In this document: positions 1,597 through 34,313 of the stretch, in pieces
Layout: every line of letters begins with the position of its first letter
Position numbering within the stretch: the stretch's first letter is position 1
Source: Phytohabitans houttuyneae
GTDB taxonomy: Bacteria > Actinomycetota > Actinomycetes > Mycobacteriales > Micromonosporaceae
Length of the DNA stretch: 64,000 nucleotides
NCBI RefSeq assembly: GCF_011764425.1
Contig: NZ_BLPF01000004.1
Span: 310,001-374,000, forward strand
Direction: 5' to 3'
Translations under genes and position numbers: made by a program
Notes under the pieces: model-generated
Database searches by the model: none
Told to the model about the DNA's origin: nothing
The model's input: only the letters and a program-made list of their open reading frames with translations

Positions 1597-2292
1597 ATGG
1601 GCGAGTCGAAGGCAGTAGTCCTGCTCAGCGGAGGTCTGGACTCGACGACAGTGTTGGCCGTTGCCGCCAGCATGGGCTTCGAACCTTATGCCCTAAGTTT
1701 CCGCTATGGACAACGTCACACGGTTGAGTTGGAGGCGGCGAGTCGTGTCGCGCGGGCCCACGGGGTGCGTCGTCACGTGATCGCCGACATCGACCTACGT
1801 GTGTTTGGCGGCTCGGCGCTTACCGACGAGGCCATCAGCGTGCCGCACCACGGCAGCGTCGAAGAGCTCAACTCCGACATCCCGGTGACTTACGTTCCGG
1901 CTCGTAACACCATTTTCCTGTCGTTCGCGTTGGCTTGGGCGGAGACGCTCGGCGCGTCGGACGTGTTCATCGGCGTGAACGCCCTGGACTACAGCGGCTA
2001 CCCCGACTGCCGTCCCGAGTACATCGAGGCCTATGAGCGGATGGCGAATCTGGCTACCAAGGCCGGAGTCGAAGGAACGCAGCAGTTGAAGATCCACACG
2101 CCGTTGATCAGTCTGACGAAGGCAGAGACGATCAAGCTGGGTATGGAACTCGGCGTGGATTACTCGCTGACCCACAGCTGCTATGACCCGGTCGGCGACC
2201 GTGCCTGCGGAACGTGTGACTCCTGCCTGCTGCGCGCCCGCGGTTTCGCCGAGTTGGGGTACACGGATCCGGCGCTCGTTCCGGCCAGTTGA
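1597..2292 (+). CDS. queC: 7-cyano-7-deazaguanine (preQ0) synthase QueC
   Basis: QueC converts 7-carboxy-7-deazaguanine to preQ0 using ATP and ammonia, the last step of preQ0 synthesis. The 231-aa length is typical. The N-terminus has the PP-loop signature SGGLDS (residues 11-16). The C-terminus carries the four zinc-binding cysteines (about 195, 204, 207 and 210, as [16 protein letters not shown]). The ATG at 1597 follows a purine-rich AGGGGG about 10 nt upstream. It is the first gene of a tightly packed run in which queE starts 2 nt after its stop codon. Placed beside folE2 and dpdA, its product most likely feeds DNA modification rather than tRNA queuosine. Confidence 0.96.
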
Positions 2293-2293
2293 C

Positions 2294-2932
2294 GTGTACC
2301 GCGTCAAGGAGATCTTCTACACCCTGCAGGGTGAGGGGAGCCACGCCGGCCGCCCCTCGGTGTTCTGTCGATTCACGAACTGCAACCTGTGGACCGGTCG
2401 AGAGCACGAGCGCTACCGCGCCATCTGCCAGTTCTGCGACACAGACTTCGTCGGCACCGACGGACCTGGCGGCGGGCGGTTCGCCACCGCCGACGACCTC
2501 GCCGCCGCGGTCACGAAAGCCTGGCAGGGCCTTGAGCACCCACGCGCGCGGCGTTACGTCGTGTGCACTGGTGGTGAGCCACTGCTGCAACTCGATCAGC
2601 CAGCGGTGGATGCACTCCATGCGGAAGGGTTTGAGGTCGCCATCGAGACCAACGGCACCCGCATCGCGCCGGCCGGCATCGACTGGATCTGCGTGAGCCC
2701 GAAAGCGGGAGCCGATCTTGTCTTGACCGCCGGCGATGACTTGAAGCTGGTGTACCCGCAGCCGGGAGCGATGCCCGAGCAGTTCGAGCACCTGGCCTTC
2801 AGCAGGTTCCTTCTACAACCGATGGACGGGCCCGACCGGGAAGCGAACACCGCCGCAGCGGTCCGGTACTGCCTGGAACATCCCCAATGGCAGTTGAGCC
2901 TGCAAACCCACAAGTACCTGGGAATCGCATAG
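2294..2932 (+). CDS. queE: 7-carboxy-7-deazaguanine synthase QueE (radical SAM)
   Basis: QueE is a radical SAM enzyme that contracts 6-carboxytetrahydropterin to 7-carboxy-7-deazaguanine. The protein has 212 aa from the GTG at 2294, which directly follows the queC stop. It shows the [11 protein letters not shown] start of the family and the atypical cluster motif CX14CX2C (cysteines flanking [14 protein letters not shown] and then CQFC). A GGEPLLQ stretch is the SAM-binding glycine motif. The open frame extends upstream into queC, but that part has no QueE homology. Its stop codon overlaps the queD GTG by one base (TAGTG), indicating translational coupling. Confidence 0.95.
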
Positions 2933-3288
2933 TGGAAATCTTTCGCGAGTTCACCTTCGAAGCGGCACACCGGCTGCCGCGTGTGCCTGAGGGCCACAAG
3001 TGCGCTCGCCTACATGGCCACTCCTACCGGCTCGAGGTCCACATCCGTGGCGAGGTCGACCCGACGGCGGGCTGGATCATGGACTTCGGCGAACTCAAGG
3101 CAACGGTGAAGCCGGTCATCGACCAACTCGACCACTACTACCTCAACGAGGTGCCCGGGCTGGAGAACCCCACGAGCGAGAACCTCGCCCGCTGGGCCTG
3201 GGGGAAGCTGGCCGACGCCCTGCCTCTATCAGCGATCGTCGTGCGCGAGACGTGTACCTCCGGCTGCGTTTACCGAGGTGAATCATGA
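2932..3288 (+). CDS. queD: 6-carboxytetrahydropterin synthase QueD
   Basis: QueD converts 7,8-dihydroneopterin triphosphate to 6-carboxy-5,6,7,8-tetrahydropterin. The product has 118 aa, close to the E. coli enzyme in length and sequence. FEAAHRLP and HGHSY supply the zinc histidines, the cysteine in GHKC is the expected catalytic residue, and the LDHYYLN, NPTSE and ETCTSGC blocks are intact. GTG at 2932 was chosen because it overlaps the queE stop and aligns with the family N-terminus. The folE2 ATG overlaps its stop codon (ATGA). Confidence 0.96.
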
Positions 3289-4076
3289 CCCTGATCGACG
3301 TTCAGGCACTTGCTGACACCCGCGGCGTCACGCTCGACGAGGTCGGCGTTGAGGGCCTTCGGTATCCCGTGCTGGTCTGCGACGGGCAAGGCAACAAACG
3401 CGACACAGTCGCAACGCTGGCAATGTCCGTCGACGTCGCCAGCGACGTCAAGGGCGCGCACCTGAGCCGATTCGTTGAGGTGCTCCACGCCTGGCGCGAC
3501 CAACTCAGCGCCGCCAGCCTCGTGCTCATGGCCGATGACCTCCGTCATCGGATGGGCAGCAACCGAGCCACCATCGCGGCGTCATTCGTCTACTTCCTTG
3601 AACGACAGGCACCGGCAACCGGAGCCATGTCCTTTATGGACTATCCATGCACCGTCTCTGCAATCGCCGGTCCCGGTGGCGCCGTGATCCGGCTACAAGC
3701 GGAGGTCGCGGTCACCAGCGTCTGCCCGTGTAGCAAAGCCATCAGTGACCGCGGCGCGCACAACCAGCGCGGCCGCATCACGATCGACGTCGAGTTGGCC
3801 GACCCCGACAGCGACATCTGGTTGGATGACCTGATTGGCATCGCTGAGCAGTCAGCGTCCTCGCCGCTGTACGCGCTGCTGAAGAGGCCCGATGAGCGAC
3901 ACGTGACGATGGCCGCTTACGACAATCCGGTGTTCGTCGAGGACATGGCCCGCAATGTGATTGTCGCCATCCGCGATGACAAGCGTGTTGCTTGCGGTCG
4001 CGTCCGGGTCGTCAACGACGAGAGCATCCACAATCACGCTGCGTTCACCCAGGTTTCCTGGACCCGGCAGCGATGA
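3285..4076 (+). CDS. folE2: GTP cyclohydrolase I type B (FolE2)
   Basis: This enzyme converts GTP to 7,8-dihydroneopterin triphosphate, the entry point to preQ0. The 263-aa protein is of the FolE2/GCYH-IB type, not FolE. The signature [18 protein letters not shown] contains the cysteine pair at residues 147 and 149 and the metal-binding His at about 159. A dedicated cyclohydrolase here means the cluster can make its precursor directly from GTP without drawing on the host folate pathway. The start overlaps queD (ATGA). The next gene begins 10 nt after the stop. Confidence 0.94.
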
Positions 4077-4086
4077 GGACGCCGCG

Positions 4087-5030
4087 ATGACCAACGCTGC
4101 CGACGAGCCCGTACACATTGTGGTTACCTGCACCAACCGCAAGCGATATCCTGTGCCGCCACAGTTGCGCATCAGCAACCTTGCCCACTTACGACCGGGC
4201 ACCAGGTTCAACGAATGGACCGCGCGGCTCGCCGACAGTTCCCACTCTCGGTACCCGGCTGCGGACCTCTACGCCGGAGAACACTGGCAGGTAGCCCAGA
4301 AGCTGACCGAGGCCCTCGCAGCCAAGACGGCGGTGTTGTGGATCGCGTCAGCCGGCTACGGCCTCGTCGCGGCAGACACAGCAGTCTGCGCCTACGGGGC
4401 CACGTTCTCTGCCTCGGCCCCCGACGCGGTCGGTGCCAGCCTCGCTGACGTCACCGACTGGTGGCGTCGACTTGGACAGTGGCCAGGACCAGCACGTGAA
4501 TCTCCGCGGACATTCGCCGACCTGGCACGTCGCAACCCGCAGGCAACGATCGTTGCGGTACTGTCCGAGGCCTACCAGCGGGCGTGTGTCGATGACTTGC
4601 TAACCGCGGCGGCGGTCCTCGGCCCCGAGGCTCTATCCGTGGTGGGACCGCCGGACGCCCAACCCCGGCTAACTGATTTGCTGGTGCCGGTTACCGCGCC
4701 GATGCGTCACACCGTCGGTGGAAGCCTGCAGGCACTCAACGTCCGCGTCGCCAGGCACCTGCTGGAGCACAGCGTCGGTCTTCAGCGCGCACCGTTGCGT
4801 GAAGCTGCCGTCGCCACTATCCCCCGAGGCCACCGACCCCTCGGGCGGCTGGGGAGCGTATGTCCGATACCGAGCTCCGTGCGTACATCCAGATGCAGGC
4901 GCACACCAGCGCCACCAACCTGCTGCGCCAACTGCGTGCCACCGGCCGCTCTTGCGAACAGGGCAGATTCGGGCTCCTGCACGCGCAGATATGTCGCGCC
5001 GATGGATGTCAGCGGGTGAGCCGATCATGA
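4087..5030 (+). CDS. dpdC: Candidate DpdC (DUF6884-like), interrupted by a -1 frameshift
   Basis: The ATG at 4087 follows a GAGG. The first ~255 residues read well: a VHIVVTCTNRKRY start, an LYAGEHW block, an ASAGYGLV block and the LNVRVARHLLEH helix. The frame then turns into Cys/Arg-rich nonsense ending at 5019. Moving to the -1 frame at the GGGG run at 4851-4854 gives RLGERMSDTELRAYIQ and then LLRQLRATGRSCEQGRFG. That frame ends at 5030 with an ATGA overlap to the next gene, so it is the real C-terminus. DpdC is known to convert dPreQ0 in DNA to the amide form dADG. The assignment here rests on position and elimination, since the other ten dpd genes are accounted for; it is not based on a diagnostic motif. 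Confidence 0.6.
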
Positions 5031-6153
5031 CTAGCAAGGCGGAGTTGGTGCGGCGCGCGCTGAGGCTGGAACAGACGGGTGGGCACCCGCTGTACCTCTT
5101 TACGCTCACCGCCGCCGAAGTACTACAGGTCGCGGACGTGTCGAGGGTCAGCCGCGACGAGGCCGGCACACTTATCGGCTACCAGCGCCCCGAGGTACAA
5201 AGCCACGTCCAGGACATCATCGACTACCTCGACAGCGACCCCGTCATCTTCCCCAACGCCATCATCTTGGCCCTGTCCTCGAAGGCAAAGTTCGTCTCCA
5301 GCCGCGGTCCCAACGTCGGCGACGGACTCGCCACCTCCGGCACCCTCACCCTGCCGCTACCCACGAACGACCGGCGGAAGCCGGCGTGGATCGTGGATGG
5401 CCAACAACGCGCCCTGGCATTGTCTCGCGCCACCCGCACGGATCTCCCGGTTCCCATCACCGCGTTCGTCGCTGACACCGTCAGCCTTCAACGTGACCAG
5501 TTTCTGCGGGTCAACAACACCAAGCCTCTGCCACGCAGCCTCGTCACCGAACTCCTGCCAGAGGTTGACAGCCCGCTCCCGACACACCTGACGGTCCGCA
5601 AAGCCCCCTCCTACCTGTGCGACCGACTCAACAACGACCAGGACTCACCCTTCTACCGCATGATCAAACGTGCATCTACCAGCAAGAAGGACGCCGCCAG
5701 AGCCGTGATTGCCGACAACAGCGTCGTCCAGATGCTTCAAGAGAGCTACCGGCACGGCTGCCTCTACCCATACCGCAACCTCAGCACCGGGGACACCGAC
5801 GTCGACGGCATACACCACGCCTTGTGCATCTACTGGGGAGCCGTCCGCGACGCGTTCCCCGAGGCCTGGGGGAAACCCCCACCAACAGCCGGCTCATGCA
5901 CGGCGCCGGCATCCGGGCAATGGGTCGCCTCATGGACCAAGTGCTCGGCACCATCGACGTACACCAACCCGGCTCCGCGGCCGAGATCCGCAAGCACCTC
6001 GACCTGGTCGCTCCACACTGCCGCTGGACGTCAGGCACATGGGACGAGAGCGGCCTGCGCTGGGACGCGGTCGAAAACGTCCACCGACACATCGAGAAGC
6101 TGTCGAACTACCTCATCCGCGTCTACCTCACCGCGAGGACCCAGCTGCGATGA
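5027..6153 (+). CDS. dpdB: DpdB, first copy (DGQHR/DndB-like), interrupted by a -1 frameshift
   Basis: DpdB assists DpdA in putting preQ0 into DNA; in Salmonella both were reported as needed for dPreQ0. The ATG at 5027 overlaps the upstream stop. The GYQRPEV block and the signature WIVDGQQR (DGQQR near residues 124-128) mark the DGQHR/DndB-like family, and NNTKPLP is also conserved. The frame breaks at the CCCCC run at 5876-5880. Reading one base back restores KPPTNSRLMHGAGI and the CRWTSGTW block found in the second copy. The restored frame stops at 6153, overlapping the dpdA ATG. Corrected length is about 375 aa. It is clearly a paralogue of the gene at 7385. Confidence 0.85.
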
Positions 6154-7388
6154 AGTTCTTTTTTCCCGACAGCCAAGACCAGGTCGATCCCAGCTTCGAC
6201 TTCATCACCGAAGAACGCGACCCCTTCCGGGTCCGCCAACGCGACGACCTATACGCCCACGAAGTCCTGCAGCCCGCACCGTTCGACGGGCTCCTCGTGT
6301 CGAAAGCGATCGTGGACGGCACCGCCGCTGCCAGCACCGGCAAGTACACCGTTGCTCAGCGTCACCGCCTCTACCGGCAAGGCGCTCAGGCTTTCTTCCG
6401 GCTCAACACCGGCAGCACCCAACTGAAGATCATGGGTGACTGTGGTGCGTTCTCCTACGTCAACGAGGAATATCCGCCCTACACCGTTGACGAGGTGATC
6501 GACTTCTACGACGGCTGCGGCTTCGACTACGGCATCGCCGTGGATCACGTCATTTTCCAATACGAACCGACCGTGGTCCGAACCGACCCCCGCGCGGCCG
6601 AATGGGTACGACGCCAAGAGATCACCCTGACGCTGGCTGCGGACTTTTGGAAACGGTGCAGCGCCCGGGACGTCCACTTCACGCCGGTCGGTGTCGCCCA
6701 AGGGTGGAGCCCAGAATCCTACGCAGACGCCATCACTACCCTGCAGCGCATTGGCTACAAACGCATCGCCCTTGGCGGCATGGTCCCACTCAAGACGTAC
6801 GAGATACTTGCCTGCCTCCGCGCTATTGACAACGTCCGCAACCGAAACACCCAACTCCACCTGCTCGGCGTCAGCCGCTACGAAGACATCCCCACATTCA
6901 CCAGTCACGGGGTCACCAGTTTCGACAGCACATCACCGTTCCGGCAGGCGTTCAAAGACGACAAGGACAACTACTACACCCCTAAGCGCAACTACATCGC
7001 GCTACGAGTACCGCAAGTCGACGGTAACGCCAAACTCAAAAAGCGCATCCAGTCCGGCGAGATCCAGCAAGACCAGGCCCTGCGCCTGGAGCGCACGGCA
7101 TTGCAACTACTGCGCCAGTACGACACAGGTCAAGTCGACGCCGATCCCGTCCTGGAGGCACTGCAGGCCTACAGCGCGGTGTGGGACGGCAAGTCCGACC
7201 GCACCGCCCAGTACCGCCAAACCCTCGAGGACCGCCCCTGGCGCACATGCGGCTGTACAATCTGCGGCACTGTCGGCGTCGAAGTGATCATCTTCCGCGG
7301 ATCGGAACGCAACAAACGACGTGGTTTCCACAACCTGTATGTTTTCGGACAACGCCTACGTGCCCAACTGGGGAAGGACGACTCGTGA
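6150..7388 (+). CDS. dpdA: DNA-guanine transglycosylase DpdA
   Basis: DpdA is a TGT-family enzyme that swaps guanine for preQ0 in DNA. The 412-aa protein keeps the TGT layout. MGDCGAF provides the general-base Asp (D97), TSFDST provides the candidate nucleophile Asp (D259), and a C-terminal zinc site is present (C367, C369, C372 and His394, as CGCTIC...H). LGGMVPL and LLGVSRYEDIP are the substrate-pocket and barrel segments typical of the family. It is much closer to DpdA than to tRNA TGT because it lies between two dpdB genes in a dpd cluster. The start overlaps the upstream dpdB stop (ATGA) and its stop overlaps the next GTG. Confidence 0.93.
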   Translation: MKFFFPDSQDQVDPSFDFITEERDPFRVRQRDDLYAHEVLQPAPFDGLLVSKAIVDGTAAASTGKYTVAQRHRLYRQGAQAFFRLNTGSTQLKIMGDCGAFSYVNEEYPPYTVDEVIDFYDGCGFDYGIAVDHVIFQYEPTVVRTDPRAAEWVRRQEITLTLAADFWKRCSARDVHFTPVGVAQGWSPESYADAITTLQRIGYKRIALGGMVPLKTYEILACLRAIDNVRNRNTQLHLLGVSRYEDIPTFTSHGVTSFDSTSPFRQAFKDDKDNYYTPKRNYIALRVPQVDGNAKLKKRIQSGEIQQDQALRLERTALQLLRQYDTGQVDADPVLEALQAYSAVWDGKSDRTAQYRQTLEDRPWRTCGCTICGTVGVEVIIFRGSERNKRRGFHNLYVFGQRLRAQLGKDDS

Positions 7389-8602
7389 CCCGCATACGTG
7401 CCACGGCCCGCGCTGCTGACAAAAACACGCCCGCCGGCGGCGCCGTCCAGCTTCTCCGCGTGCCAGCGTTGGAAATCCGACAAGGACCAACGCGGAGGCT
7501 CTATACCTTCGCCATCGACGGTAAAAAGGTTCCGCAATTTGCCGCTGTGTCTCGGGTTCGTCGTGACGAACAGAAGCAGTTGCACGGTTACCAGCGCCCC
7601 GAAGTCCTCAACCATGTCGCCGCCATCCGCCGCTACATCGAATCCGACGACAACCCGCTGCTCCCCAACGCGATCGTGATCGCCTTTGACGAGCGGGTGA
7701 AGTTTGTGCCTGCCACGACTCCTGGGAATGAGCCCGAAGGTACGGGCTATGTGCGTACAGGCACGCTCCAGGTCCCGATCAATCACCTATGGGAAGACGT
7801 AGACAAGCCCGGCTTTATCGTCGATGGGCAGCAACGCTGCGCGGCAATCCGCGACGCCAGCGTCGATGCCTTCCCGATCTGCGTAACTGCATTCATCACA
7901 GGAGAGCACGCCGACCAACGATCCCAGTTCATCCTAGTCAACTCGACCAAGCCGCTGCCGAAGGGTCTCATACACGAGCTCCTACCCACCGCCTCCGGAG
8001 CGCTGCCCACGCCACTGCGGGTACGGCAACTGCCCGCCACTGTGCTAGAGCGCCTCAATTACGACGAGCGTTCCCCGCTCCAGCACATGATCCAAACGCC
8101 AACCAATCCAACCGGGGTCATAAAAGATAACTCGGTCCTCAAGATGGTTGAGAACAGCATCTCCGACGGAGTGCTTTACCGGTTCCGCGGGGACGACGCA
8201 CTTCCGAACGTTGGACTCATGTTCACCGTCCTGGCCAACTTCTGGACCGCGGTCCGGGACGTTTTCGGAGAGGAAGCCTGGAACAAGCCGCCACGCAAGT
8301 CGCGGCTCATGCACGGTGCGGGCGTCATCAGTATGGGCTTCCTCATGGATGCCATCGCTGACCACCATGGGCCGGGCGAGGACCTGCCCGACGCCAACGA
8401 GTTCGCCGCCGCCCTCAAGACCGTTAAAGACGACTGCCGCTGGACCGGTGGCACCTGGGACTTCGGCGACGGCGTCGTATGGCGCTGGAACGACATCCAA
8501 AACACTCCCCGTGATATCCAGCGAGTGACCGACTTCCTGTTGGGGCGGTACCGTGCGAGCCTCACCACTGGAAACGGGCGCAAGGCGAAGCGCCGACGGT
8601 AG
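7385..8602 (+). CDS. dpdB: DpdB, second copy (DGQHR/DndB-like)
   Basis: This intact 405-aa DpdB starts at GTG 7385, overlapping the dpdA stop (GTGA); the open frame continues upstream but only inside dpdA. It has the HGYQRPEV block, FIVDGQQRCAAI (DGQQR near 147-151), NSTKPLP, SRLMHGAGV and CRWTGGTW, matching the first copy block by block. The two copies are clearly diverged, for example in the region before the DGQQR motif, so they are not a recent duplication. Two DpdB proteins around one DpdA may act as a heteromeric complex (inference). It closes the modification half of the cluster; 776 nt follow before dpdE. Confidence 0.9.
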   Translation: MTRIRATARAADKNTPAGGAVQLLRVPALEIRQGPTRRLYTFAIDGKKVPQFAAVSRVRRDEQKQLHGYQRPEVLNHVAAIRRYIESDDNPLLPNAIVIAFDERVKFVPATTPGNEPEGTGYVRTGTLQVPINHLWEDVDKPGFIVDGQQRCAAIRDASVDAFPICVTAFITGEHADQRSQFILVNSTKPLPKGLIHELLPTASGALPTPLRVRQLPATVLERLNYDERSPLQHMIQTPTNPTGVIKDNSVLKMVENSISDGVLYRFRGDDALPNVGLMFTVLANFWTAVRDVFGEEAWNKPPRKSRLMHGAGVISMGFLMDAIADHHGPGEDLPDANEFAAALKTVKDDCRWTGGTWDFGDGVVWRWNDIQNTPRDIQRVTDFLLGRYRASLTTGNGRKAKRRR

Positions 8603-9378
8603 CCAACGCGACCCCACGGCGAACAACTGCAAGAGGGATGGGCTACCCTCGGCAGCTTCGTAGTCCACCAGTGGAGCGCGCCTGTTGTGCTGTCGGCATT
8701 TGGCGGCTGAGAGGGCGTCGGATGGCGGCAGCCACGTAACGAGGGGGATCTCCCAAGCAAGGGGCCGGATTCCCCATTGGCGGCTGACCGATCGACCCAT
8801 CCGGCCCGGCGGCAACCCGCAGCTCATGCGCATCAAAGGTTTCACTGAGTCATATCGACGGCGCCCTTTGCCGGTGCCGCAACGACGAGGCCTGCCCCCT
8901 CACGGGCCAGGGGTCCACGTTGTTTATGCAAGGGCCTGGGGTGCGAGGGGTCTTCCGGCCGGCTGGAACAAGCGACGTGCAAGTCACCGCTGGCGCATGG
9001 TGCCGGGCGAGTTTTTCCATGGACTACCTGACGGACGCGATTCGCTGGCGCCCGCCGCTGGACCGAGGGGAATGGATCTTCAGTCGCGGGCCGTGCATGG
9101 ATGGAACGGCATCCGGAACACACGACCCGTGACCGCCTTTCCCGCACGACTACCGTGCCATCGCCCCGTAAGTAGCGAGCGCTGCAGGGCCGAGAAGGTA
9201 GGCGAGAGGTATCCAGTCCAGCGTATGGCGCGACGCCGGTCCGGAGGTGCCTGGCCTCCGTTTGTGTCTATTTCCCGACTGACCTATCCATTTGGCCCAC
9301 ACGAGATCCTCTTTAGTTTACTCGCAAGGGGCTGTCGGTGGGGTGAAGAATGTCGGTGGCGGTAGATATCCTGCGTGT
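8603..9378. other. 776-nt gap between modification and restriction halves of the dpd cluster
   Basis: Open frames exist on both strands, the longest on the plus strand at 8685-9365, but none has a plausible protein composition or a recognisable domain. I see no RNA gene or clear hairpin. A promoter for dpdE is expected near the right end but cannot be pinpointed by eye. Confidence 0.5.
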
Positions 9379-16127: not shown

Positions 16128-19100
16128 CTTCCGGCAGTATTTGTGCTGGTCCCCCCTCACCGCAGGGCACACCATCAACACCGAGGCGGTTTCACCGTCT
16201 CGGGCCGTCTTCTTCGCCACCCACGCACCACTGCGTATCCGGCGGCGCCACCCCGAGGGCCGCGCCGACGCCCGCACTACCGAGGTCACCGAAGAAGAGG
16301 TTTGCAGCGACTTCTTGAACCGGCCGACCGCCAACGGAGTCCTGTTCATGCCAGTTGTGGGCGAGTCGGGCGCCGGCAAGTCTCACCTGGTGCGATGGGT
16401 CCATGAGAAGACGCCTGAAACCCCCACACGATCTATCGTCTACTTGCCCAAGACCAGCACCAGCCTCCGCGCCGTCGTCCGGACCTTGCTCGATAAACCC
16501 GACATCGACAGCCCCGAAATTGCTCGGCTGCGCGCCGACGTGGATCGGATGAGCACCGAACTGGACCAAGCCGCCCTCGAACGCCGGCTGATTAACGAAC
16601 TCTCTGAAGCAGTGAGCACTGCGGAACCCAAACCAGGCCATGCCAGGATGCTTGCAGGACCTAATCGGCTTGCCGCCGTGCTGCTCGATCCCTACATTCG
16701 TGACTACCTGCTACAACCCGGCAAACTAATCCCACGCCTAGCCGCCGCGCTCCTGTCAGACCAGCACGACGGACTCAACGACCGGCCGTCCCACTTCACT
16801 ATCGATGATCTTCCCCTTGATGTGGCCGATATCAAGCTGGCCTCGGACAAGGCTCGCCAGGTGTTGGGACATTTATATGGAAAACCTGAGTTGCAACCCG
16901 TCGCGGCAGAGATCCTCACCGAACAGTTGCCGACGGCTGTCACTGGGGCATGGAACATTGGCGGTGGGCGCCTTCAGGAGGCGATGCTCGAAGTTAGGCG
17001 ACAGTACGCCCTCCAAGGCAAGGAACTGCTACTCCTCATCGAGGACTTTGTGGTCCTACAAGGCGTTCAACGGGACCTTCTCGACGCCCTTATCGAGGTT
17101 GGTATACGCGACGGCAAGACCGTGCTCGCCCCCGTACGCACGCTGATGGCCGTCACCCCGGGCTACTTCGACCGACTCGAGGAAACCGTCCTAACACGTG
17201 CAAAGGCAGCAACGCCCTACATCTACGATCTCGACGCTGTCTTCGATGTGTCAGAACGAGGAGAAGCGGAGGTTGCCGCCTTTGTGGGGCGCTACCTCAA
17301 CGCAGCCAGGGTGGGCCGCGAGCGGATCGAGGAGGTCGGCGTCGGGGCGGGTGCCGACGTTCCCAACCAATGCGACGATTGCCCGTACAAGCAGCCTTGT
17401 CATTCGACGTTTGGCGTCTCGACCGCTGGACACGGGCTATATCCGTTTAACTGGTCTGCGCTGCGGCGGGCAATACGCGCGCGGCCAGCACACAAGAGTC
17501 CAAAGTCTTTCAACCCTCGCGCCGTTATCGGTGAAGTCATTCGACCAGTACTTTTGGAACACGCCGAGTCGCTCGCGGCGGGAACGTTCCCAGATGCGAG
17601 ATTCCGCGAAGACTACCCTACCGCAACGGGATTGGGAGAAACATTCCTTTACGGCGCTGTCAAAACACAGATCGACGAACTTGATCCAACCGGTAGTGAG
17701 CGCCGGCAGACCCTCTTGGAGTTTTGGGGCGACGCTCCCAAGGAACTCGTCAATCTTCCACCCGACCTACATCACGCCTTCGGTATCAGCCTACTTGACC
17801 TCGCCGAGCGACCAGATCGGATCATCCGCGAACCGCAGCGTCCAGCCGCCGGCAGATCAGCTACCGAACCCGCGGCGGCCACGCATCCCTCGGGACTGGA
17901 TTCGCTGCCGCCTCGGGTGCGTAAAATGTGCGACGACCTAGAGAACTGGCAAGGCGGCGAAGGAAAGCTACTGCAAGGCACGGCGCTGGAGTTGCGAAGG
18001 ATCATCAAGCAGGCGGTGGTGAGCCAGTGCGCGTGGAATGAGCCGGTGATGGCTGAGCCACTGGCCGCACAACTGGATAAAGCGTGGCCATCACGCTCCA
18101 CAGTGGTGTCGATCAAGGATGCCGAGGGAGAAGGCATGGTCGGCACCACCGACGCACCGATCAAGTTCGACCGAAACGCGCGCAATGCCACCTTCTTTCA
18201 GCAACTACTCTTGGCTGCCAACGGCATGACCGTCGGGAACGCGGGTGCCATCCGGCGCCTGCACCGCATCGCGAGCCGGCATCAGCGAGACCTGCAGCGC
18301 GCCGTAGTCCGGGCCAGGTCATTCTCCGACGAGGATCTCGTCACCGCCATGCGCGCCTCTCTGCTAGGCGCTGTTCTCTCTGGCCGTGCATGGCCAGAGA
18401 TGGCAAGTCCTGAATTGCTTGACGCTGTCCTCGACGACGGCGCCTCGTGGAAACGCAGCGACGTGGACGGCTGCGTTGCGCCGTGGGTGGGGTTGTGGGA
18501 GGCCCACCGGGCTGCACGCCTCGAGCTCGTTGCGAGGCTCCGCGAGAGCGTTGGCTATCGCCGCGGTACCCGAGGAGACGTACGCGTGGTGGACGCGGCC
18601 CGGGTTGTGCCGTTGCTTGCTCGAGCGGCCGAGGAGTGGGTCTGGCGACCCGACCGGTTGCCGGAATGGGTAGCTAAGGAGGCCGTAGCCGGATTCGCCA
18701 AATTCGCCGGCCTCGTCGAGGCGCAGGCCGCGCGGCTACGCGAGGAGCTTGGTGACATCCGGCGCGGACTTCCCACTGGCGTTAGTGGCAGCGACACCAT
18801 GACCGCGGTCGAGCAGGCGCTTGACGACGGCCTTCGCGAAGGGCTCGGACCCGACGATCTCGCAGCCTTCCGCAACGTCGTTGAGGCCGCTCGTCGCTGC
18901 GACTGGCGTCGAATTGATCGACTCGAACGTCATTTGGGCCAAATCGAGTCGGAAGCCGATACAGATGCCCGGTACCGGGCCACGCTGAAGCTGGTGACAG
19001 CCTACAGAGGACACGATCTGGCAGTCATCCGTGAGTTCCTGACCGCAAGCGACACCTGGCTGACGCAACAACTTGCCACAGCCAAACAGCGGGCTGGCGG

Positions 19101-19176
19101 ATCTGGCGCGATCGCCGCCGTGCGGGTGCAGGAGTTCCTCCGTCGCTGGAGCGCCCTTGGTGGAGGTGTGCAGTGA
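16120..19176 (+). CDS. dpdH: DpdH, large P-loop ATPase
   Basis: The 1018-aa protein has an AAA/STAND-like P-loop: Walker A GESGAGKSHLVRW near residue 82 and a Walker B-like LLIEDF near 306. A four-residue Cys/His cluster (NQCDDCPYKQPCHSTFG, near 417-432) suggests a small zinc site. The C-terminal third is helical and charged. Its ATG overlaps the end of dpdG by 8 nt and the dpdI GTG overlaps its stop. It is named by ATPase type and by its place between dpdG and dpdI. In Salmonella, dpdH was not among the genes tied to restriction, so its job is unclear. Confidence 0.83.
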   Translation: MSDFRQYLCWSPLTAGHTINTEAVSPSRAVFFATHAPLRIRRRHPEGRADARTTEVTEEEVCSDFLNRPTANGVLFMPVVGESGAGKSHLVRWVHEKTPETPTRSIVYLPKTSTSLRAVVRTLLDKPDIDSPEIARLRADVDRMSTELDQAALERRLINELSEAVSTAEPKPGHARMLAGPNRLAAVLLDPYIRDYLLQPGKLIPRLAAALLSDQHDGLNDRPSHFTIDDLPLDVADIKLASDKARQVLGHLYGKPELQPVAAEILTEQLPTAVTGAWNIGGGRLQEAMLEVRRQYALQGKELLLLIEDFVVLQGVQRDLLDALIEVGIRDGKTVLAPVRTLMAVTPGYFDRLEETVLTRAKAATPYIYDLDAVFDVSERGEAEVAAFVGRYLNAARVGRERIEEVGVGAGADVPNQCDDCPYKQPCHSTFGVSTAGHGLYPFNWSALRRAIRARPAHKSPKSFNPRAVIGEVIRPVLLEHAESLAAGTFPDARFREDYPTATGLGETFLYGAVKTQIDELDPTGSERRQTLLEFWGDAPKELVNLPPDLHHAFGISLLDLAERPDRIIREPQRPAAGRSATEPAAATHPSGLDSLPPRVRKMCDDLENWQGGEGKLLQGTALELRRIIKQAVVSQCAWNEPVMAEPLAAQLDKAWPSRSTVVSIKDAEGEGMVGTTDAPIKFDRNARNATFFQQLLLAANGMTVGNAGAIRRLHRIASRHQRDLQRAVVRARSFSDEDLVTAMRASLLGAVLSGRAWPEMASPELLDAVLDDGASWKRSDVDGCVAPWVGLWEAHRAARLELVARLRESVGYRRGTRGDVRVVDAARVVPLLARAAEEWVWRPDRLPEWVAKEAVAGFAKFAGLVEAQAARLREELGDIRRGLPTGVSGSDTMTAVEQALDDGLREGLGPDDLAAFRNVVEAARRCDWRRIDRLERHLGQIESEADTDARYRATLKLVTAYRGHDLAVIREFLTASDTWLTQQLATAKQRAGGSGAIAAVRVQEFLRRWSALGGGVQ

Positions 19177-19859
19177 ACCCCGGATCGGTGTTGGACAAGG
19201 CCCGGGATTTGAGCGCCCAAGCGGAAAGACTCCGAGTTGGCGCAGCGGGGGAGGAGAACGCCAAACGGATCCTGACCAGGCTGGACGAACTTAACGCCCT
19301 CCTTGACGAGGTCGAAGCGGCATCGGGTGCATCGGATCGCCTTCGTGAACAGGCCGTGGACTTGCCTCCAGTTCGACTCGACCAAGGACGTGAGGCGCTC
19401 GAACGGTCGGCCGGGGACGCCGGGCTGCCCACCGTGCGAGCCCTCACAGCCGCAAAGGAGAAAATTGAGGCGGTCCGCCGCGACGTGCAGCTCAGCCTGT
19501 CGCAGGCGTGGTCACAATGGACTACCGCGCGAATGGCGGAACTAGCACTGCACCGCATGGTCATGCTTCCCCCCGTGGAGCGGCGCACGGAGGAAGCGCG
19601 GTTGGGTAGACTGAATAAGCTCAGCAAGGTCGGCAAGAACGATGTCCCCTCTCGCTCCGACGTGGTCGAGTTCGTCGCGGTCTACGCTGGGCTTAAGGAA
19701 GATCTTGATGCGCTCAAGGATCCGGCACCCGAACTGCAAACGCTGCTGACTCGCCTCGGGCAGCGGACGACGCTGGCCCACCTGTCGGACGACGACATCG
19801 CGCTGCTGCGTCGGTACGAGGTCGCCGATCAGATCGAAGTACAAAGGAGAAGTGGGTGA
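19173..19859 (+). CDS. dpdI: DpdI, small helical protein
   Basis: The 228-aa protein is almost entirely charged and helical, with coiled-coil character over the first ~125 residues (AKRILTRLDELNALLDEVEA, AAKEKIEAVRRDVQLSLSQ) and no membrane segment or catalytic motif. It starts at GTG 19173 in a GTGA overlap with dpdH and ends in another GTGA overlap with dpdJ. The two flanking overlaps imply stoichiometric co-expression with the DpdH ATPase and DpdJ helicase. The name rests on its position between dpdH and dpdJ. Salmonella dpdI was linked to the restriction-like phenotype. Confidence 0.72.
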   Translation: MNPGSVLDKARDLSAQAERLRVGAAGEENAKRILTRLDELNALLDEVEAASGASDRLREQAVDLPPVRLDQGREALERSAGDAGLPTVRALTAAKEKIEAVRRDVQLSLSQAWSQWTTARMAELALHRMVMLPPVERRTEEARLGRLNKLSKVGKNDVPSRSDVVEFVAVYAGLKEDLDALKDPAPELQTLLTRLGQRTTLAHLSDDDIALLRRYEVADQIEVQRRSG

Positions 19860-22800
19860 CACAGCGGCGTGACGGTCGCTTCCTGTCAAGGATTCTCGAT
19901 GACTTGGAAGACCTTGAACTGCCGCTACTGACGTGGGGCGTCACCACGGGCAGTTTGGCTCACGACGAGGTCATGACCGTTATCGCCGAACGGCTCGGCG
20001 ACGCGGACGCACCCACCGACACCAGCGTCGACCAGGTCCGCGAGGCTCTGCTCGACGCCGCGCTGCTGTTCTCGGTGCCCAACACATCTCCGAAGCGCTA
20101 CCGCACACGCATGGGCGAGACGGTCCGGCTCACCAGCCGACTCCGGCAACTGTTTTCACTGCGTCAGCCCGCCGCTCCACCGCCACGGTGGTGGCTGAAC
20201 GGCCGGACACTTGTCGCCGACTTCCGGCTGCAGGTCAGCCGGCGCCGCTACCCGAGTCGCAACGTCCCAGTCGACGCCGCGCTGACCACACTCGCCGGGC
20301 TACCGGCCTGGTCCGACCACGACGCCGCCATCGCCCGAGCACAGTTGGGCGACCTGGCCTTGGCCCGCTTCCAGGTCGACGGCACGACAGCGATCATGAG
20401 CGCTATCAGAGCCGGCCGCAACGCCGGAGTCATCGTCGGCGCGGGCACCGGTAGTGGAAAGACGCTGACCTTCTACCTACCGGCCTTCCTGGCGATGGCA
20501 GGCCGTGCCTGGGCAGGTGGCACCGGCGTGCACACCCTTGCCCTGTACCCCCGCATCGAACTGCTCCGCGACCAGCTCCGTGAGGCAGTCAAGGCCGCGA
20601 TGCGCGTCAACGCTGCCCAGGAGCAGCGCGGCGCTCGCCCCCTGCGGATCGGCGTCCTCTACGGCGACACCCCCCAAAGCCTCCAGCAACTCGAGTCCGG
20701 CACCGCGGCACATCTCAGGCGCGGCTGGGCCGAGCGTGGCACCGACCTGCTCTGCCCCTACCTGAGATGCCCCGCATGCGGCGGAGAACTGGTGTGGAGC
20801 AGGCAGGACCGCGGGGACAACCGCGAGCGGATCCAGTGCACCACGGCGTCGTGCGGCACCACGATCTCTGATCTGGTCCTCACCCGCGACACGCTTCGGC
20901 AGTCGCCACCCGACCTGTTGTTCACTACCACGGAAATGCTCAACCGCAACTCCACCGATCCCGGCCTCGGGCCCCTGCTCGGCTGGTTCGGACCACGGCG
21001 GCCCAGCCTCGTCCTGCTCGATGAGGCCCACACCTACACCGGAATGCACGGCGCCCAGGTGGGCCTGCTGCTACGCCGATGGCGCCACGCATTGCGTGCC
21101 CCGGTGACGATCGTCGGGCTCAGCGCCACCCTCCGCGACGCCGCCGCGTTCTTCGGGCAACTCACCGGTCTGCCCGACGCGTCGGTGGACTACATCACCC
21201 CCGGGGCTAACGATTTCGAGGAGGAAGGACGGGAGTACGCCATCGCGCTCCGCTCCGACCCGGTGTCCGGCGCGAGCCAACTGTCCACGTCAATACAGAC
21301 CGCAATGCTCTACGGCCGAGTCTTGGACCTGCCCGGCCGCGAGTTCCAGCACGGGTCGAGGGGGTTCCTCTTCACAGACGACCTCGACGTGACCAACCGC
21401 TTCTACGACGACCTGCGCGACGCCGAAGGGCAGCAGGGCGGCCGAAGCACACGTCGAGCCGGCAACGTGCTGGCAGGGCTGCGGTCGCCCGACGCGCAGC
21501 ACTGGAGCGAAAGGTACACCGACGGCCAGTCGTGGGATCTCGTTAAGCAAATCGGCCGAGACCTCGACCCGATGGCCACTGTCGGCGAACTCCAGATCGG
21601 ACGCACCTCCTCGCAGGACGCCGGCGTCGACCAACACGCCGATCTCATCGTCGCCACCGCGTCACTCGAGGTTGGATACGACGACGACCGCGTTGGACTC
21701 GTCCTTCAACACAAGGCCCCGCATGACGCCGCCGCGTTCATCCAACGCCGCGGCCGGGCAGGCCGCCGCCGCGGCACACGGCCCTGGACTGTGGTGACCC
21801 TGTCCGACTACGGCCGGGACCGACTGGCCTACCAGGCATACGATTCGCTGTTCTCACCCGAGCTCACCGCCACCCGCTTGCCCATCGGCAACCGCTTCGT
21901 CCTGAAGATCCAGGGCACGCAGGCCATGCTTGACTGGCTCGCCGCCATGCTGCGCCAGCACCACGTCGATGTGCGCCGTGTACTGACCGCGCCCGTGCCC
22001 GGCGGCCGGCCGATACCGGACCACTACGTCACCCCGCTGGCCAACCTTCTGGAGCAGTTGCTCACCGACGCGGCGCTGCAAGACAATCTGATCAACCATC
22101 TGCGTCGCGCTCTCGACATCAGCCAGGACGAAGCCCAAGCTCTGCTATGGGAACAGCCCCGTGCGCTCCTGCTGGGAGTCGTGCCAACCGCGCTACGCCG
22201 ACTGCGCTCGGCCTGGAGGCCCGCAGCAGCCGTCGATCCTGGCGCGCACCCGAGAAGCCTGTTGCCCGAGTTCCTCACCGGAACACTGTATGAACCACTC
22301 AACGTTCCCGAGGTTACCCTCGAAATGCCATTCACCGACGAGGAGGAAACCCTCTCGATCGAACGGGCACTTCGCGAAGCCGTGCCCGGCAAGGTCAGCC
22401 GCCGCTACGGATACCGTCGAAGCGACGACAGAACCTGGGTAGCGCTACCCGACGCATCCGCAGGCGGAAACCTCGACATCGGAAGGTTCGTCACCGCATT
22501 CACCCCACAAGGTGTCTGGAGCCCAGACGGCCACCCACCGGTCCAGGTGCTACGACCCCACGTGATCGCTCTGCGTCGACCACCAGCCGATATCGACACC
22601 CGATCACAGGGCATCCCGAACTGGGCCTCTCAGGTGCTCGCACCTACCAGCGGCATGTTCGCGGCCGATGTCCCGCAGCCCTCCGCCTGGGGCACACGCA
22701 TCAGTTCCGTCGGGTTCGCTACCAGCGCCGCCGGCAACTCGGCAGAAGTCCGACGCATGACGATCGGCGCCGAATGCGATACCACGTACACGCGCCCGAA

Positions 22801-24322
22801 CCGTACTGAAGCCAGCAGCGTCCGCTACACCTTCGACGGCCAACCAGCCGCCCTCGGGTTCCGCCTCACCGTCGACGCGGTCAGCTTTCGTCTCGCACCC
22901 CTTGACTTGCAACGCGACACGGTCATCAACTACCTGCGCTCACCGCAGTGGCGCCTACTCGCATTCACGACAGCCCTTGCTGAGGACACTGAACTCGACC
23001 AAGTCGCGAACACCTTCCAACGCACCTGGCTGAGCTTGGTCTACACCACCGCGTACGCACTCGCCGCCACACAACCTCACCGCGCCGACCAGAGCAGCGA
23101 AACAATTCACTCCGCGCTACGCGGCGGAGCGTGGCGAGCCGACATCGACGAGATCTTGCGTGTGCTGTACCGAGACGCCACCCCTGGCAGCACCGCGCCC
23201 GAGCGGCTCGTCACCACACTGACCGAACTCAGCCACGACGCCAGGGTCATCGAGCGGTTGGACCACCATGGACGGTTGCTGTGGGCGGCCGACGTCACCG
23301 CCAGCAGCGCAAACCTCGCCCGCAGGGTCTACCAGGACACCATCGCCGCCGCGATCCTCGCCGCGGCGCAACGCGCCTGCCCCGATGCCCAGGACCGCGA
23401 CCTCATCGTTGACATCCAGGGAACGGCCCAACCCGACGCTGCCGCTACGATCTGGCTCAGCGAGACCTCACTCGGCGGCCTAGGCATCGTTGAGCAGTTC
23501 GCCATCTACTACGCGCAAGATCCGCGCCGTTTCTGGGCGCTCGTCGACAGCGCACTCGGCCCCAGCGACTACGAACACGTGCACGAGTCACTTGTACGCC
23601 TGCTCGAGCACGTCGTCACCCACCCCACCGGTGCGGCAGCGCAGGCCATGGACTCGCTCCGCCAGGCGCGATCAGCGCACGACGCGGACGCCGCCCTGCG
23701 CCAGTTGCGTGAGGCGTGGACCGCGCTCGACGGTTACCCCCGCCATCAGGCGGTCGCCGCCCTCTCCGCGCGACTGCTGCGACCAGGCAGCACCCGCGCC
23801 ACGGACACCACCACCCTGGCCCTGGTACGGGAATGGGATGCGCTACAGGAGCGACTCGGTATCGAGATCGACGCCACGACATTGGCGTACCTGGTCGGTG
23901 CCGGCCGGATGACCCTGCCCGGTCTGAGCGGGCCAAACCTCACCGCCGACCAGGTCTTCAGCCTGCTGTGGCCCCGCGGCAACCGTGCCCGCGCCCAGCA
24001 CCTGCAGCACTACCAGCCCTACGCCGGGCCACCGCTGATCGACCGGCTTCTGGTCCAGGCCGCCCACGACGAACGGCTGCCCACCGTCGAAGTCACAGAC
24101 CCGGAATGGTTGAAGCAGTACACCACCGAAGTCGGTAAACGTGGCGCCCTAACTCTCGTCGCACCGGCTAGTCACGCACGCGAGTTCAGGGCCGCCCTGC
24201 AGGCCGTACCCGCGGTCGCGATCGACCGAGACGTGCTGCGGGTATATGGGGAGGTCACCACCGTGGTCCGCGATGCCGGCCAACTCCGGGCGAATATCGA
24301 GATCCGCGAGGCACTACAGTGA
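19856..24322 (+). CDS. dpdJ: DpdJ, giant DEAD/DEAH-box helicase
   Basis: At 1488 aa this is the largest protein in the window. Walker A GAGTGSGKTLTFYLPAF lies near residue 197. A four-cysteine zinc finger (CPYLRCPACGG then CTTASCG) is inserted near 300-340. The DEAH box (LLDEAHTYTG) is near 389, SATL near 422, and the C-terminal helicase motifs SLEVGYDDD and QRRGRAGRRRG lie near 602-638. About 800 further residues follow without familiar motifs, as in other giant defence helicases. GTG 19856 overlaps dpdI. It may contribute to the restriction-like activity. Confidence 0.87.
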   Translation: MTQRRDGRFLSRILDDLEDLELPLLTWGVTTGSLAHDEVMTVIAERLGDADAPTDTSVDQVREALLDAALLFSVPNTSPKRYRTRMGETVRLTSRLRQLFSLRQPAAPPPRWWLNGRTLVADFRLQVSRRRYPSRNVPVDAALTTLAGLPAWSDHDAAIARAQLGDLALARFQVDGTTAIMSAIRAGRNAGVIVGAGTGSGKTLTFYLPAFLAMAGRAWAGGTGVHTLALYPRIELLRDQLREAVKAAMRVNAAQEQRGARPLRIGVLYGDTPQSLQQLESGTAAHLRRGWAERGTDLLCPYLRCPACGGELVWSRQDRGDNRERIQCTTASCGTTISDLVLTRDTLRQSPPDLLFTTTEMLNRNSTDPGLGPLLGWFGPRRPSLVLLDEAHTYTGMHGAQVGLLLRRWRHALRAPVTIVGLSATLRDAAAFFGQLTGLPDASVDYITPGANDFEEEGREYAIALRSDPVSGASQLSTSIQTAMLYGRVLDLPGREFQHGSRGFLFTDDLDVTNRFYDDLRDAEGQQGGRSTRRAGNVLAGLRSPDAQHWSERYTDGQSWDLVKQIGRDLDPMATVGELQIGRTSSQDAGVDQHADLIVATASLEVGYDDDRVGLVLQHKAPHDAAAFIQRRGRAGRRRGTRPWTVVTLSDYGRDRLAYQAYDSLFSPELTATRLPIGNRFVLKIQGTQAMLDWLAAMLRQHHVDVRRVLTAPVPGGRPIPDHYVTPLANLLEQLLTDAALQDNLINHLRRALDISQDEAQALLWEQPRALLLGVVPTALRRLRSAWRPAAAVDPGAHPRSLLPEFLTGTLYEPLNVPEVTLEMPFTDEEETLSIERALREAVPGKVSRRYGYRRSDDRTWVALPDASAGGNLDIGRFVTAFTPQGVWSPDGHPPVQVLRPHVIALRRPPADIDTRSQGIPNWASQVLAPTSGMFAADVPQPSAWGTRISSVGFATSAAGNSAEVRRMTIGAECDTTYTRPNRTEASSVRYTFDGQPAALGFRLTVDAVSFRLAPLDLQRDTVINYLRSPQWRLLAFTTALAEDTELDQVANTFQRTWLSLVYTTAYALAATQPHRADQSSETIHSALRGGAWRADIDEILRVLYRDATPGSTAPERLVTTLTELSHDARVIERLDHHGRLLWAADVTASSANLARRVYQDTIAAAILAAAQRACPDAQDRDLIVDIQGTAQPDAAATIWLSETSLGGLGIVEQFAIYYAQDPRRFWALVDSALGPSDYEHVHESLVRLLEHVVTHPTGAAAQAMDSLRQARSAHDADAALRQLREAWTALDGYPRHQAVAALSARLLRPGSTRATDTTTLALVREWDALQERLGIEIDATTLAYLVGAGRMTLPGLSGPNLTADQVFSLLWPRGNRARAQHLQHYQPYAGPPLIDRLLVQAAHDERLPTVEVTDPEWLKQYTTEVGKRGALTLVAPASHAREFRAALQAVPAVAIDRDVLRVYGEVTTVVRDAGQLRANIEIREALQ

Positions 24323-24837
24323 TGCTGGAACGAGTAGTGCGTACCGGCCGGACCACAGGGTTACGCATCGACAAGATCCTGACCACCGTCCTCGTCGCCG
24401 AACTTGTGTCGCCCAGCAGGATCCTGTGGCTGGTTTCGCCGTGGATCAGCGATGTCAACGCCATCGACAACACCACCGGCGGATACGACAGCGTCTTCAT
24501 CGAGGCAACCAACCGCATGTATCAACTGTCAGAGGTGCTCGCACTGCTGACCCACAGCGGTGCGACCTTAAATGTCGTCACCCGTCCCGATGCCCACAAC
24601 GACACCTTCCTGCGCCGCCTGCGGCGCCTAGCAAAGGCCGAGAACGTGTACGTCGTCCAGGACGACGACGTACACGAAAAGACCTTCTGTGGCGACGACT
24701 GGCTACTCACTGGATCGATGAACCTGACGGTCCGCGGGATGCAGATCAACGATGAGGCGGTCACCTACAAGATCAACGACCAGGTCGCCGCGAATACACG
24801 AGTTGACCTGCGTCGACGCTTCGGAGCCGACGCATGA
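24319..24837 (+). CDS. dpdK: DpdK, phospholipase D-like (single HKD) protein
   Basis: The 172-aa protein has one HxK(x)4D motif (HEKTFCGDDWLLTGSMNLT, His near residue 120) with the following GSMN, the phospholipase D superfamily signature. Single-HKD proteins in defence loci usually dimerise to form a nuclease, so it is a candidate DNA-cutting component of the dpd restriction side (inference). The start GTG 24319 is directly followed by an in-frame ATG at 24322; both overlap the dpdJ stop. Its own stop overlaps the dpdD ATG (ATGA). Confidence 0.87.
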   Translation: MMLERVVRTGRTTGLRIDKILTTVLVAELVSPSRILWLVSPWISDVNAIDNTTGGYDSVFIEATNRMYQLSEVLALLTHSGATLNVVTRPDAHNDTFLRRLRRLAKAENVYVVQDDDVHEKTFCGDDWLLTGSMNLTVRGMQINDEAVTYKINDQVAANTRVDLRRRFGADA

Positions 24838-26824
24838 ACACCGAACCCAACGTCGGCGACTACGGCCACGCAGTCGACATCTTCATCGAAGCCTTCTTCG
24901 GCCCCGCCAATCCGGTGTGGTCGGATCGCGACCCGAACTCGGCCATCGGCCGCCGCCTAGCCCCGTACCTTCAGGTCCTTCGCCACGGCGCCGGCGTTCC
25001 CATCGTCCTGCCGCGACAAAACCCGCAAACGCGCCAGTGGGCCGCGTACGTCATCCCGCGGGATGCCCGTCACGCCGGCGCAGTGTCCGAACTGCTTCAA
25101 GCATTCGTCGGTCCCACCTACGCGCGGTTCGATGGCCTACCGACACAGTTGGCTGACGAGGACCCAATCGATCAGGCCGTCGTCCGTTTCGCTGGCCACC
25201 GCCTCATCTTCGTCATCGAAAGCCCACGGGCTGTCGAAAAGAGGATGTGGGACGCCCTACGCCTAATGCAGCAGACCCTCGCCGTGCGGCCACACCGATC
25301 CTGGCACGCACCGGTCCCGGTAGGTCGACTCCTGGCACAGTTCGAGATCGCGCTGGCCTCAGGTGCCAACGCCGCCTCCGCCGAGGTCCTCGACCAGCTC
25401 ACCGCAACCGGGGGGCTGAACGCCAACAACCTTAGCCATCTGAGGATCAAGCGGCTCGCACGACTTGGGAGAAGCAGCGAGCTACTGCGGTTGCCCGATC
25501 TTGTCGACGTCGCCACCACACGGCCACCCGTCCCAGTGCGTAACGCGATCCTCGGCGCGGTGTACGCAACGGCACTCGCTGAACCCCTGTCCACCGGCGA
25601 CCTGCAAACGGCCAGAATGCGTCTCATCGAGGCAGGAACCCTGGTGCCGGCGCTGATGGAAGGAGCCCTTACCGACCTCAGCCCAGAATCTCTGACGGTG
25701 CTCGCCATGGCCGCCTGGATCGCCGACAGTACCCCGATCGGCGAGTTCCTCCGCCAGAGCCCAGAAATGCTCGCCGCGGTGGAGCGGTTGGCTCCCGGCC
25801 TCGCTATTCACTACCGGGAGCCCTTAACAGCCCTAGAAGCCGACGGCCTGCCAGATGGCGACCAGGCCGAACCTGATACCCCAGCCCTCCCCAAGTCCTG
25901 GCTAGCGTGCATCACCAGCCTCGCCGGGCAGGAAGCAAACCGCGAGATCATCGACCAGGAGTTGTGGCGCTCCTGGCCCGCTGCGGCCGACGCCGACGCC
26001 GACATCGCCGCCGCCCTCGAGCAACTCGATGACGAAGCGGCGGGACACGCCTGGCACCTGGTCGGCGCCTTCGTCGATTCGGATCAGTACCGACGACCAG
26101 CCGCCAAAACGGCCCGCGAGTTCCTCAGCAACGCCCTCACACATGATCGCTTCAGCCCAGGTGATCTCGCCGGCATCGTTGCGCTGGCGGAGATATTCCT
26201 CCGGGCCAGCCCAGACGCTTCGACCTATGCGCGGCTGCTCGACGACCTGGCCGCCGAAGCAACCCGGTGGGTCGGACCCGACCGCGCCACAGTTGTGCTC
26301 GACCTCGCCGACCTCCTAGCCAGCGCCCCCTACCCGGACGAAGAGGCGAGGCTTCGGCTTGCCTACCAACTTCTACGGCCACTGTCTGACCATCCCAAGC
26401 GGCTCGATGCCGATCAGTTGACCTTCGCGGCACGGCTGAGTGCAGAACTGGGCGCAACACTGACCTGGCCTCGGCAGGATGATCACGGCACGATCAACCT
26501 TCTACCGGACGTACCGACACAAGAACTGCTGCTGTACTCCCTCGACGAAAAGGTCCTCGATCGTGTGCGCGCAGAACTCCAACTGCAAGCCCCCAAGTCA
26601 CCGTGACCGCAAGTCACGACCACGTCGGCAGCCGGCAGTTCAAACAATGGATCCGCAAGGCCGACGCCATCGTCATGGCCACCCGATGCGCCACCCACGC
26701 CGCGACCGGATTCATCCGCGCCCACTGCAGGCCAGACGCCATAGTGCGGGAAGCCGACGGCAGTGGATCAGCATCGCTGCTACGCGCTGCCACGCTAGCC
26801 ATCACTCGCCGACAGACCGAATAG
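24834..26824 (+). CDS. dpdD: DpdD, with C-terminal DUF2325-like domain split off by a frameshift
   Basis: The first frame runs 590 aa from ATG 24834 to a TGA at 26604-26606. A second frame begins immediately at GTG 26603 and runs to 26824. Restoring one C in the CCCCC run at 26590-26594 joins them through QAPQVTVTASHDHVG and creates a continuous DUF2325-like alpha/beta domain: LLLYSL strand, helix, VTVTASHD strand, RKADAIVMATRCATHAA, then GSGSASLLRA. I therefore treat both frames as one gene of about 660 aa. The name DpdD comes from its place after dpdK and by elimination. No nuclease motif is seen in the N-terminal part. It ends the cluster. Confidence 0.7.
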
Positions 26825-34293: not shown

Positions 34294-34313
34294 GAACAGA
34301 AAGGCCTGACGCT

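Follow-up and report, generated by a model that had tools for sequence, protein, structure and literature searches.

Introduction

Genomic islands of the dpd type, reportedly described by Thiaville in 2016 and by Yuan in 2018, carry synthesis genes (dpdA to dpdC) and restriction genes (dpdD to dpdK), some of them with neighbouring genes for de novo preQ0 (7-cyano-7-deazaguanine) synthesis or extra dpdB. DpdA, together with DpdB, inserts preQ0 into DNA, and the modified nucleoside dADG is the product of DpdC (PMC12839542); preQ0 is made from GTP via FolE, QueD, QueE and QueC, and genes for its de novo synthesis accompany about 27% of dpd islands (PMC11888242, a 2025 preprint). The same preprint counts 801 extra dpdB copies and describes additional copies as common in dpd islands (PMC11888242). 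The subject of this work is a dpd island of Phytohabitans houttuyneae, located in a window of 64,000 nt (contig C4, 310001-374000; GC content 0.649) in a genome of 11.34 Mb that is assembled in five contigs and is 95.44% complete.

This locus is an ordinary dpd island, a further example of an established kind of phage-defence system, sharing with the published islands the dpdA to dpdC and dpdD to dpdK gene sets, the neighbouring preQ0 genes and an extra dpdB copy. Traits that may set it apart are that two DpdB genes flank DpdA, FolE2 (the IB type) serves as GTP cyclohydrolase, queC comes first among the modification genes and the assembly contains frame changes. We have good confidence in reading the locus as an island for Dpd modification and restriction that brings a preQ0 module of its own and was probably transferred, and whose frame changes are most likely under-calls in homopolymers.

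Gene content and organization

Sixteen genes, all on the plus strand, occupy positions 1597-26824 in the order queC-queE-queD-folE2-dpdC-dpdB1-dpdA-dpdB2, followed by dpdE-F-G-H-I-J-K-D (Table 1). Genes were named by comparing NCBIfam scores with curated cut-offs, except for DpdC, which was named by PADLOC, and dpdI, which was named by position. When the products are compared with Dpd families, 15 of the 16 genes have a model match in NCBIfam or PADLOC, DpdG among them only as two pieces below the cut-off; the product of dpdC has no match among the NCBIfam models. These matches bear out a preliminary description of this DNA as to which genes are present, their order and strand, and where the cluster begins and ends; the end coordinate given there, 26824, coincides with the stop codon that closes the second dpdD frame. 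That description also called the cluster complete. The gene set and order are indeed present, but as assembled four genes contain five frame changes, seen in protein matches, and the notion of a cluster complete and intact as assembled was therefore dropped.

Gene content and reading frames are observed directly, whereas the chemistry and restriction are deduced from the families to which the genes belong and from the literature on other dpd islands. On this basis, FolE2, QueD, QueE and QueC would make preQ0 from GTP; DpdA, aided by DpdB, would swap guanine for preQ0 in DNA; and DpdC would hydrolyse preQ0 in DNA to dADG. DpdE to DpdK, together with DpdD, would form the arm that is thought to restrict unmodified DNA. 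DpdA matches a solved DNA-guanine transglycosylase (PDB 7ui4, E 8.2e-130). Its residues C367, C369, C372 and H394, presumably a zinc-binding set, are invariant along with D97, D132 and D259 in all 11 rows compared (the window and 10 of 41 related loci). Its DpdB (DGQHR) partner is also present, the downstream copy covering the full profile.

Stop and start codons overlap at 10 of the 15 gene junctions, two of which rely on a second frame. The single long intergenic gap runs from 8603 to about 9388 and separates dpdB2 from dpdE, which suggests that the island consists of two operons split at this point.

Table 1. Genes of the dpd island, with window positions and the matches on which each name is based.
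Gene and product	Position	Strand	Evidence
queC, preQ0 synthase	1597..2292	+	TIGR00364 209.1 bits, cut-off 150.3
queE, 7-carboxy-7-deazaguanine synthase (Cx14CxxC type)	2294..2932	+	TIGR04508 355.1 bits, cut-off 240; start codon inferred (comparison queries started two codons before the listed start, at 2288)
queD, 6-carboxytetrahydropterin synthase	2932..3288	+	TIGR03367 116.0 bits, cut-off 89.25; start codon inferred; top-scoring of the genome's three PTPS matches
folE2, GTP cyclohydrolase IB	3285..4076	+	NF010200 244.9 bits, cut-off 215
dpdC	4087..5030	+	PADLOC DpdC 167.6 bits, profile 4-215 of 299; two-frame matches to relatives; frame change 4821-4848; second frame stops at 5028-5030
dpdB1 (upstream DpdB)	5027..6153	+	NF041060 332.9 bits, cut-off 300, profile 3-273 of 352; two-frame matches; upstream clade; frame change 5857-5881
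dpdA, DNA-guanine transglycosylase	6150..7388	+	NF041059 614.0 bits, cut-off 200; frame intact
dpdB2 (downstream DpdB)	7385..8602	+	NF041060 477.5 bits, cut-off 300, profile 1-352 of 352; clusters with downstream copies; frame intact
dpdE, SNF2-type helicase	9388..12645	+	NF041062 1072.6 bits, cut-off 500; frame intact; start codon unsettled
dpdF, RecQ-like helicase	12638..15220	+	NF041063 866.6 bits, cut-off 550; frame intact; start codon inferred
dpdG	15221..16127	+	NF041064 57.3 and 45.8 bits (two end pieces, each below cut-off 80); three-frame match to DpdG of locus L009; frame changes 15685-15694 and 15765-15801
dpdH	16120..19176	+	NF041065 1075.5 bits, cut-off 450, profile 1-1014 of 1014; frame intact
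dpdI	19173..19859	+	By position only, between dpdH and dpdJ
dpdJ, helicase	19856..24322	+	NF041067 1686.8 bits, cut-off 800; frame intact
dpdK, phospholipase D-like protein	24319..24837	+	NF041068 200.8 bits, cut-off 100; frame intact
dpdD	24834..26824	+	NF041061 448.3 bits, cut-off 300; frame change 26585-26600

Two DpdB lineages

A scan of genome contigs for DpdA yielded 41 distinct loci. DpdB lies on both sides of DpdA in 31 of them, and in several of the others a contig end truncates the locus. A tree of 76 DpdB rows places 35 of the 36 upstream copies in one clade (support 100/99) that contains no downstream copy; the downstream copies do not group as one supported clade. The stray upstream copy (locus L037) and two rows from locus L042, which sit at the base of the upstream clade, are long-branched. 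The position labels change twice each on this tree, compared with about 25 times in shuffles. Members of the upstream clade come from Actinomycetota, Planctomycetota, Acidobacteriota, Pseudomonadota, Myxococcota and Cyanobacteriota, and some of these are metagenome-assembled genomes. The motif VDGQQR is found in every upstream (35/35) and every downstream (38/38) row, counts that exclude one upstream row and the two L042 rows.

The part of the preprint covered here does not discuss two DpdB lineages (PMC11888242), and no description of paired lineages was found among the titles and abstract openings listed in a literature search. Tentatively, the DpdB1-DpdA-DpdB2 arrangement could represent a distinct Dpd subtype, in which anciently separated DpdB paralogues act as a pair on one transglycosylase. 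If so, the two proteins may, for example, form a hetero-oligomer or serve as separate loading and site-choice factors, unlike the situation in islands with a single DpdB. The observation sharpens the question of why DpdA is accompanied by two old lineages of DpdB, one upstream and one downstream.

Frame changes in the assembled cluster

Proteins of related loci match the window in more than one frame at five places, one each in dpdC, dpdB1 and dpdD and two in dpdG. All five changes are net -1, as derived from the frames of the matches, and the intervals in Table 1 were read off from the match ends. Past the shift, identity is 72% for dpdC and 82% for dpdB1 (both to L013), 72% for dpdG (to L009) and 66% for dpdD (to L016). 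The relatives' similarity past each shift is about equal to or above that before it, the lowest case being dpdC against L009, which goes from 51 to 46%. In dpdD, the final 71-73 residues sit in another frame and are 62.5-67% identical to L016, L019 and L020.

Under-calling of homopolymers in the assembly is likelier than decay as the source of these changes, and we hold this view with fairly high confidence. A run of five C or five G is present in four of the five intervals (the second shift in dpdG is without one). When intervals of the same sizes were placed at random 20,000 times, allowing 5 bases of slack, a count of four was never reached. As controls, DNA from elsewhere in this genome was aligned to that of three congeners (G001, G002 and G004), the length covered by at least two comparators being 25,635 bases (13,738 in L073, 8,664 in L074 and 3,233 in the window). 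To count as specific to this genome, a change had to affect a single base, to set the genome apart from two or more comparators and to have no further insertion or deletion within 75 bases. Among the changes set aside by this rule were a -1 in a C5 run at L074 position 10814 (one comparator) and a -1 at 9023 (one of three). Two own-specific changes were found, each a -1 that stands against all three congeners. One lies at a G5 run (L074 position 1456) in a polA-like gene (L074:904-2000, contig C1), where two parts of a PolA-type 5'-3' exonuclease fall in different frames by Pfam. The other lies near 59729, beside a G4 run, in a GH127-like gene of the window (57172-60482). Isolated changes of their own also occur in G002 and G004 in these alignments. 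Because a housekeeping gene, the polA-like one, is broken in the same way as the island genes, under-calling is indicated, and the cluster of the living strain is probably intact.

Several observations weigh against this reading. The rate in the island (5 in 25.2 kb) is nominally above that in the controls (2 in 25,635 bases), although the former was counted from protein matches and the latter from DNA alignments. Neither the second dpdG shift nor the GH127-like shift has a run of five. Elsewhere on this contig, polyketide-synthase sequence stays in an unbroken open frame for 18.7 kb, with a frame switch near the 18.4-kb mark that is either a gene boundary or a shift, and the run-length profile of the genome, tested as a sign of systematic compression, is not clearly different from that of relatives. 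The polA-like gene need not be indispensable, since the genome has another 5'-3' exonuclease gene (L004). As to the identity of the island as a whole, DpdI is unconfirmed: its product matches no PADLOC, NCBIfam or Pfam model and is 29-31% identical (tblastn) to the gene in the same place in L016, L019, L020 and L024.

Real decay is an unlikely alternative. It would have spared preQ0 synthesis, DpdA and DpdB2 and cost the island DpdC, DpdB1, DpdG and the end of DpdD, leaving a modification-only remnant in which dPreQ0 would be expected with little or no dADG and restriction would not work. The spread of five changes over four of the 16 genes, the nominal excess over the control and the shift outside any run of five speak for decay. 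So does the state of the related loci, where no piece in another frame was seen among 41 dpdB, 38 dpdC and 8 dpdG rows (the dpdC row of L041 matched at its end only, and where a locus lacks an upstream dpdB the match is to another copy); L009, for example, has its dpdC, dpdB1 and dpdG each in one frame. Moreover, certain relatives are broken in other genes: the matches to L041 dpdA and L040 queD come in pieces, L041 dpdB2 is interrupted and the L040 dpdA range contained a stop. Conversely, no other type of break was noticed in the island, and for ten genes (queC, queE, queD, folE2, dpdA, dpdB2, dpdE, dpdF, dpdJ and dpdK) the match to a relative stays in a single frame and stops at most 13 residues short of the relative's end. 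The undiminished conservation past the shifts and the like -1 changes in the polA-like and GH127-like genes also argue against decay. Under-calling thus remains the preferred explanation, and the case serves as a warning that defence islands called complete from one assembly can conceal frame errors.

Supply of preQ0

The GTP cyclohydrolase, QueD, QueE and QueC genes form one block with intact frames, their models scoring over the cut-offs and their products matching L013 in one frame. FolE2 would act as a stand-in for FolE in the preQ0 pathway. The preliminary description had pictured an island able to work in a host without queuosine synthesis, and the host appears to fit that picture. Its genome has no tRNA-guanine transglycosylase (TGT) over the family cut-off, the sole hit being DpdA itself at 20.8 bits (cut-off 26.3), and nothing in it matches QueF, although at 95.44% completeness absence is no proof and QueG and QueH were not searched for. 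A QueA-like gene (248.6 bits; L049, contig C1:3270486-3271484) is present in this genome without a TGT over the cut-off or a QueF match. The analysis confirms a preQ0-equipped dpd island in such an actinomycete.

Gene content supports the self-sufficiency ascribed to the island, and autonomy for preQ0 is plausible; this host is no proof of it, because a second locus of FolE, QueC, QueD and QueE-like genes lies on the same contig. As an idea it is not new, being in print already for the roughly one quarter of dpd islands found beside de novo preQ0 genes (PMC11888242). The second locus lies about 83 kb to the left of the island (C4:227.7-230.2 kb) and has FolE-I (172.2 bits), QueC (213.5 bits), QueD (97.2 bits) and an adjoining QueE-like radical SAM gene.

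This side-by-side set could be the main source of preQ0, or both loci could feed one pool, so that the island would not depend on its own genes. We consider this improbable, somewhat more so than decay. The island copies have intact frames and lie in one run with dpdC-B-A-B, and the QueC, QueD and QueE of the second locus are merely 38 to 43% identical to them and have partners of their own. In addition, all four preQ0 genes (queC, queE, queD and folE2) lie near dpdA in 22 of the 41 related loci; ten loci have the three que genes without folE2 and nine have fewer, as counted in the flanks near dpdA, three of these nine poorest loci being contigs of less than 5 kb. With no TGT over the cut-off and no match to QueF in this actinomycete, one main use of preQ0 would be the modification of DNA, beside one other locus.

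The neighbourhood of the second locus (L004:3581-14715, contig C4) comprises a MurC-like ligase, FolE-I, QueC, QueD, the QueE-like protein, a reverse transcriptase, an open reading frame with an FGE-sulfatase match (77.1 bits), DUF6884 (29.6 of 30 bits), glycosyltransferases, a radical SAM protein and a 5'-3' exonuclease. The nearest solved relatives of the reverse transcriptase are labelled retron-type and group II reverse transcriptases. The box of such enzymes is usually written YADD; here FADN takes its place, in nine of nine aligned sequences. Among 150 genomes sampled from the family, 10 have this reverse transcriptase, and the set QueC-QueD-QueE-reverse transcriptase-DUF6884-GT2 recurs in eight of the nine other loci that contain it. 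No long template/variable repeat pair, as in diversity-generating retroelements, was seen at the locus, and no paper on the QueC-QueD-QueE-reverse transcriptase locus was found among the titles and abstract openings listed in a literature search.

The restriction arm

DpdE, DpdF, DpdH, DpdJ, DpdK and DpdD score above their Dpd-specific cut-offs, whereas the DpdG pieces fall below, the end of DpdD is shifted and DpdI is positional. That the helicase genes come from another defence system, such as DISARM, and merely lie beside the modification operon can be rejected with near certainty on model scores, in agreement with the preliminary assignment to Dpd: DpdE has SNF2-like helicase domains in common with the DrmD models of DISARM, but the best of these reaches 138.1 bits (cut-off 610), against 1072.6 for DpdE.

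Related loci and mosaic origin

The form of the island is common in actinomycetes. Within the genomes searched, DpdA occurs in 8 of 121 (this one included) and in none of the five others of the genus, a patchy occurrence that fits sporadic transfer; the island is thus sporadic in its family and was probably acquired by transfer. In a plasmid collection, 25 records have a DpdA relative, the best identity among the matches listed being 49%. To the right of the island lie an IS21-type pair (28590-31114), a tRNA-Arg gene (31825-31902) and a tyrosine integrase gene (34278-35774).

The gene order is the same in L009, L010 and L017 through dpdH, where the available flanks end, and the restriction arm is inverted in, for example, L016, L019, L020 and L024. 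Sequence similarity is mosaic. From queC to dpdB1, almost every gene is nearest to Dactylosporangium roseum NRRL B-16295 (L013), which has the order queC-queE-queD-folE2-dpdC-B-A-B-E-F-G-H and is 69-90% identical in this part. However, its dpdE to dpdH are just 33-43% identical to those of the window, which points to a different history of the restriction arm. These four genes are instead nearest to Micromonospora haikouensis DSM 45626 (L009), which is 54-83% identical through dpdH and more distant in folE2, dpdC and dpdB1 (66, 54 and 66%, respectively).

Flanking features

Directly upstream of queC, at 823-1214, a 32-base unit that has a palindromic core is repeated 12.2 times in tandem. The exact core was not found in the other loci compared, three loci of the same genome being left out. 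Adjoining the island, the stretch 72-821 encodes a PIN_8 domain (75.5 bits) and also matches GIY-YIG weakly, at 21.1 bits against a cut-off of 22.6. Farther to the right, a minus-strand gene at 47365-49305 has a caspase-like domain match of 21.3 bits, slightly below the Pfam cut-off of 21.4.

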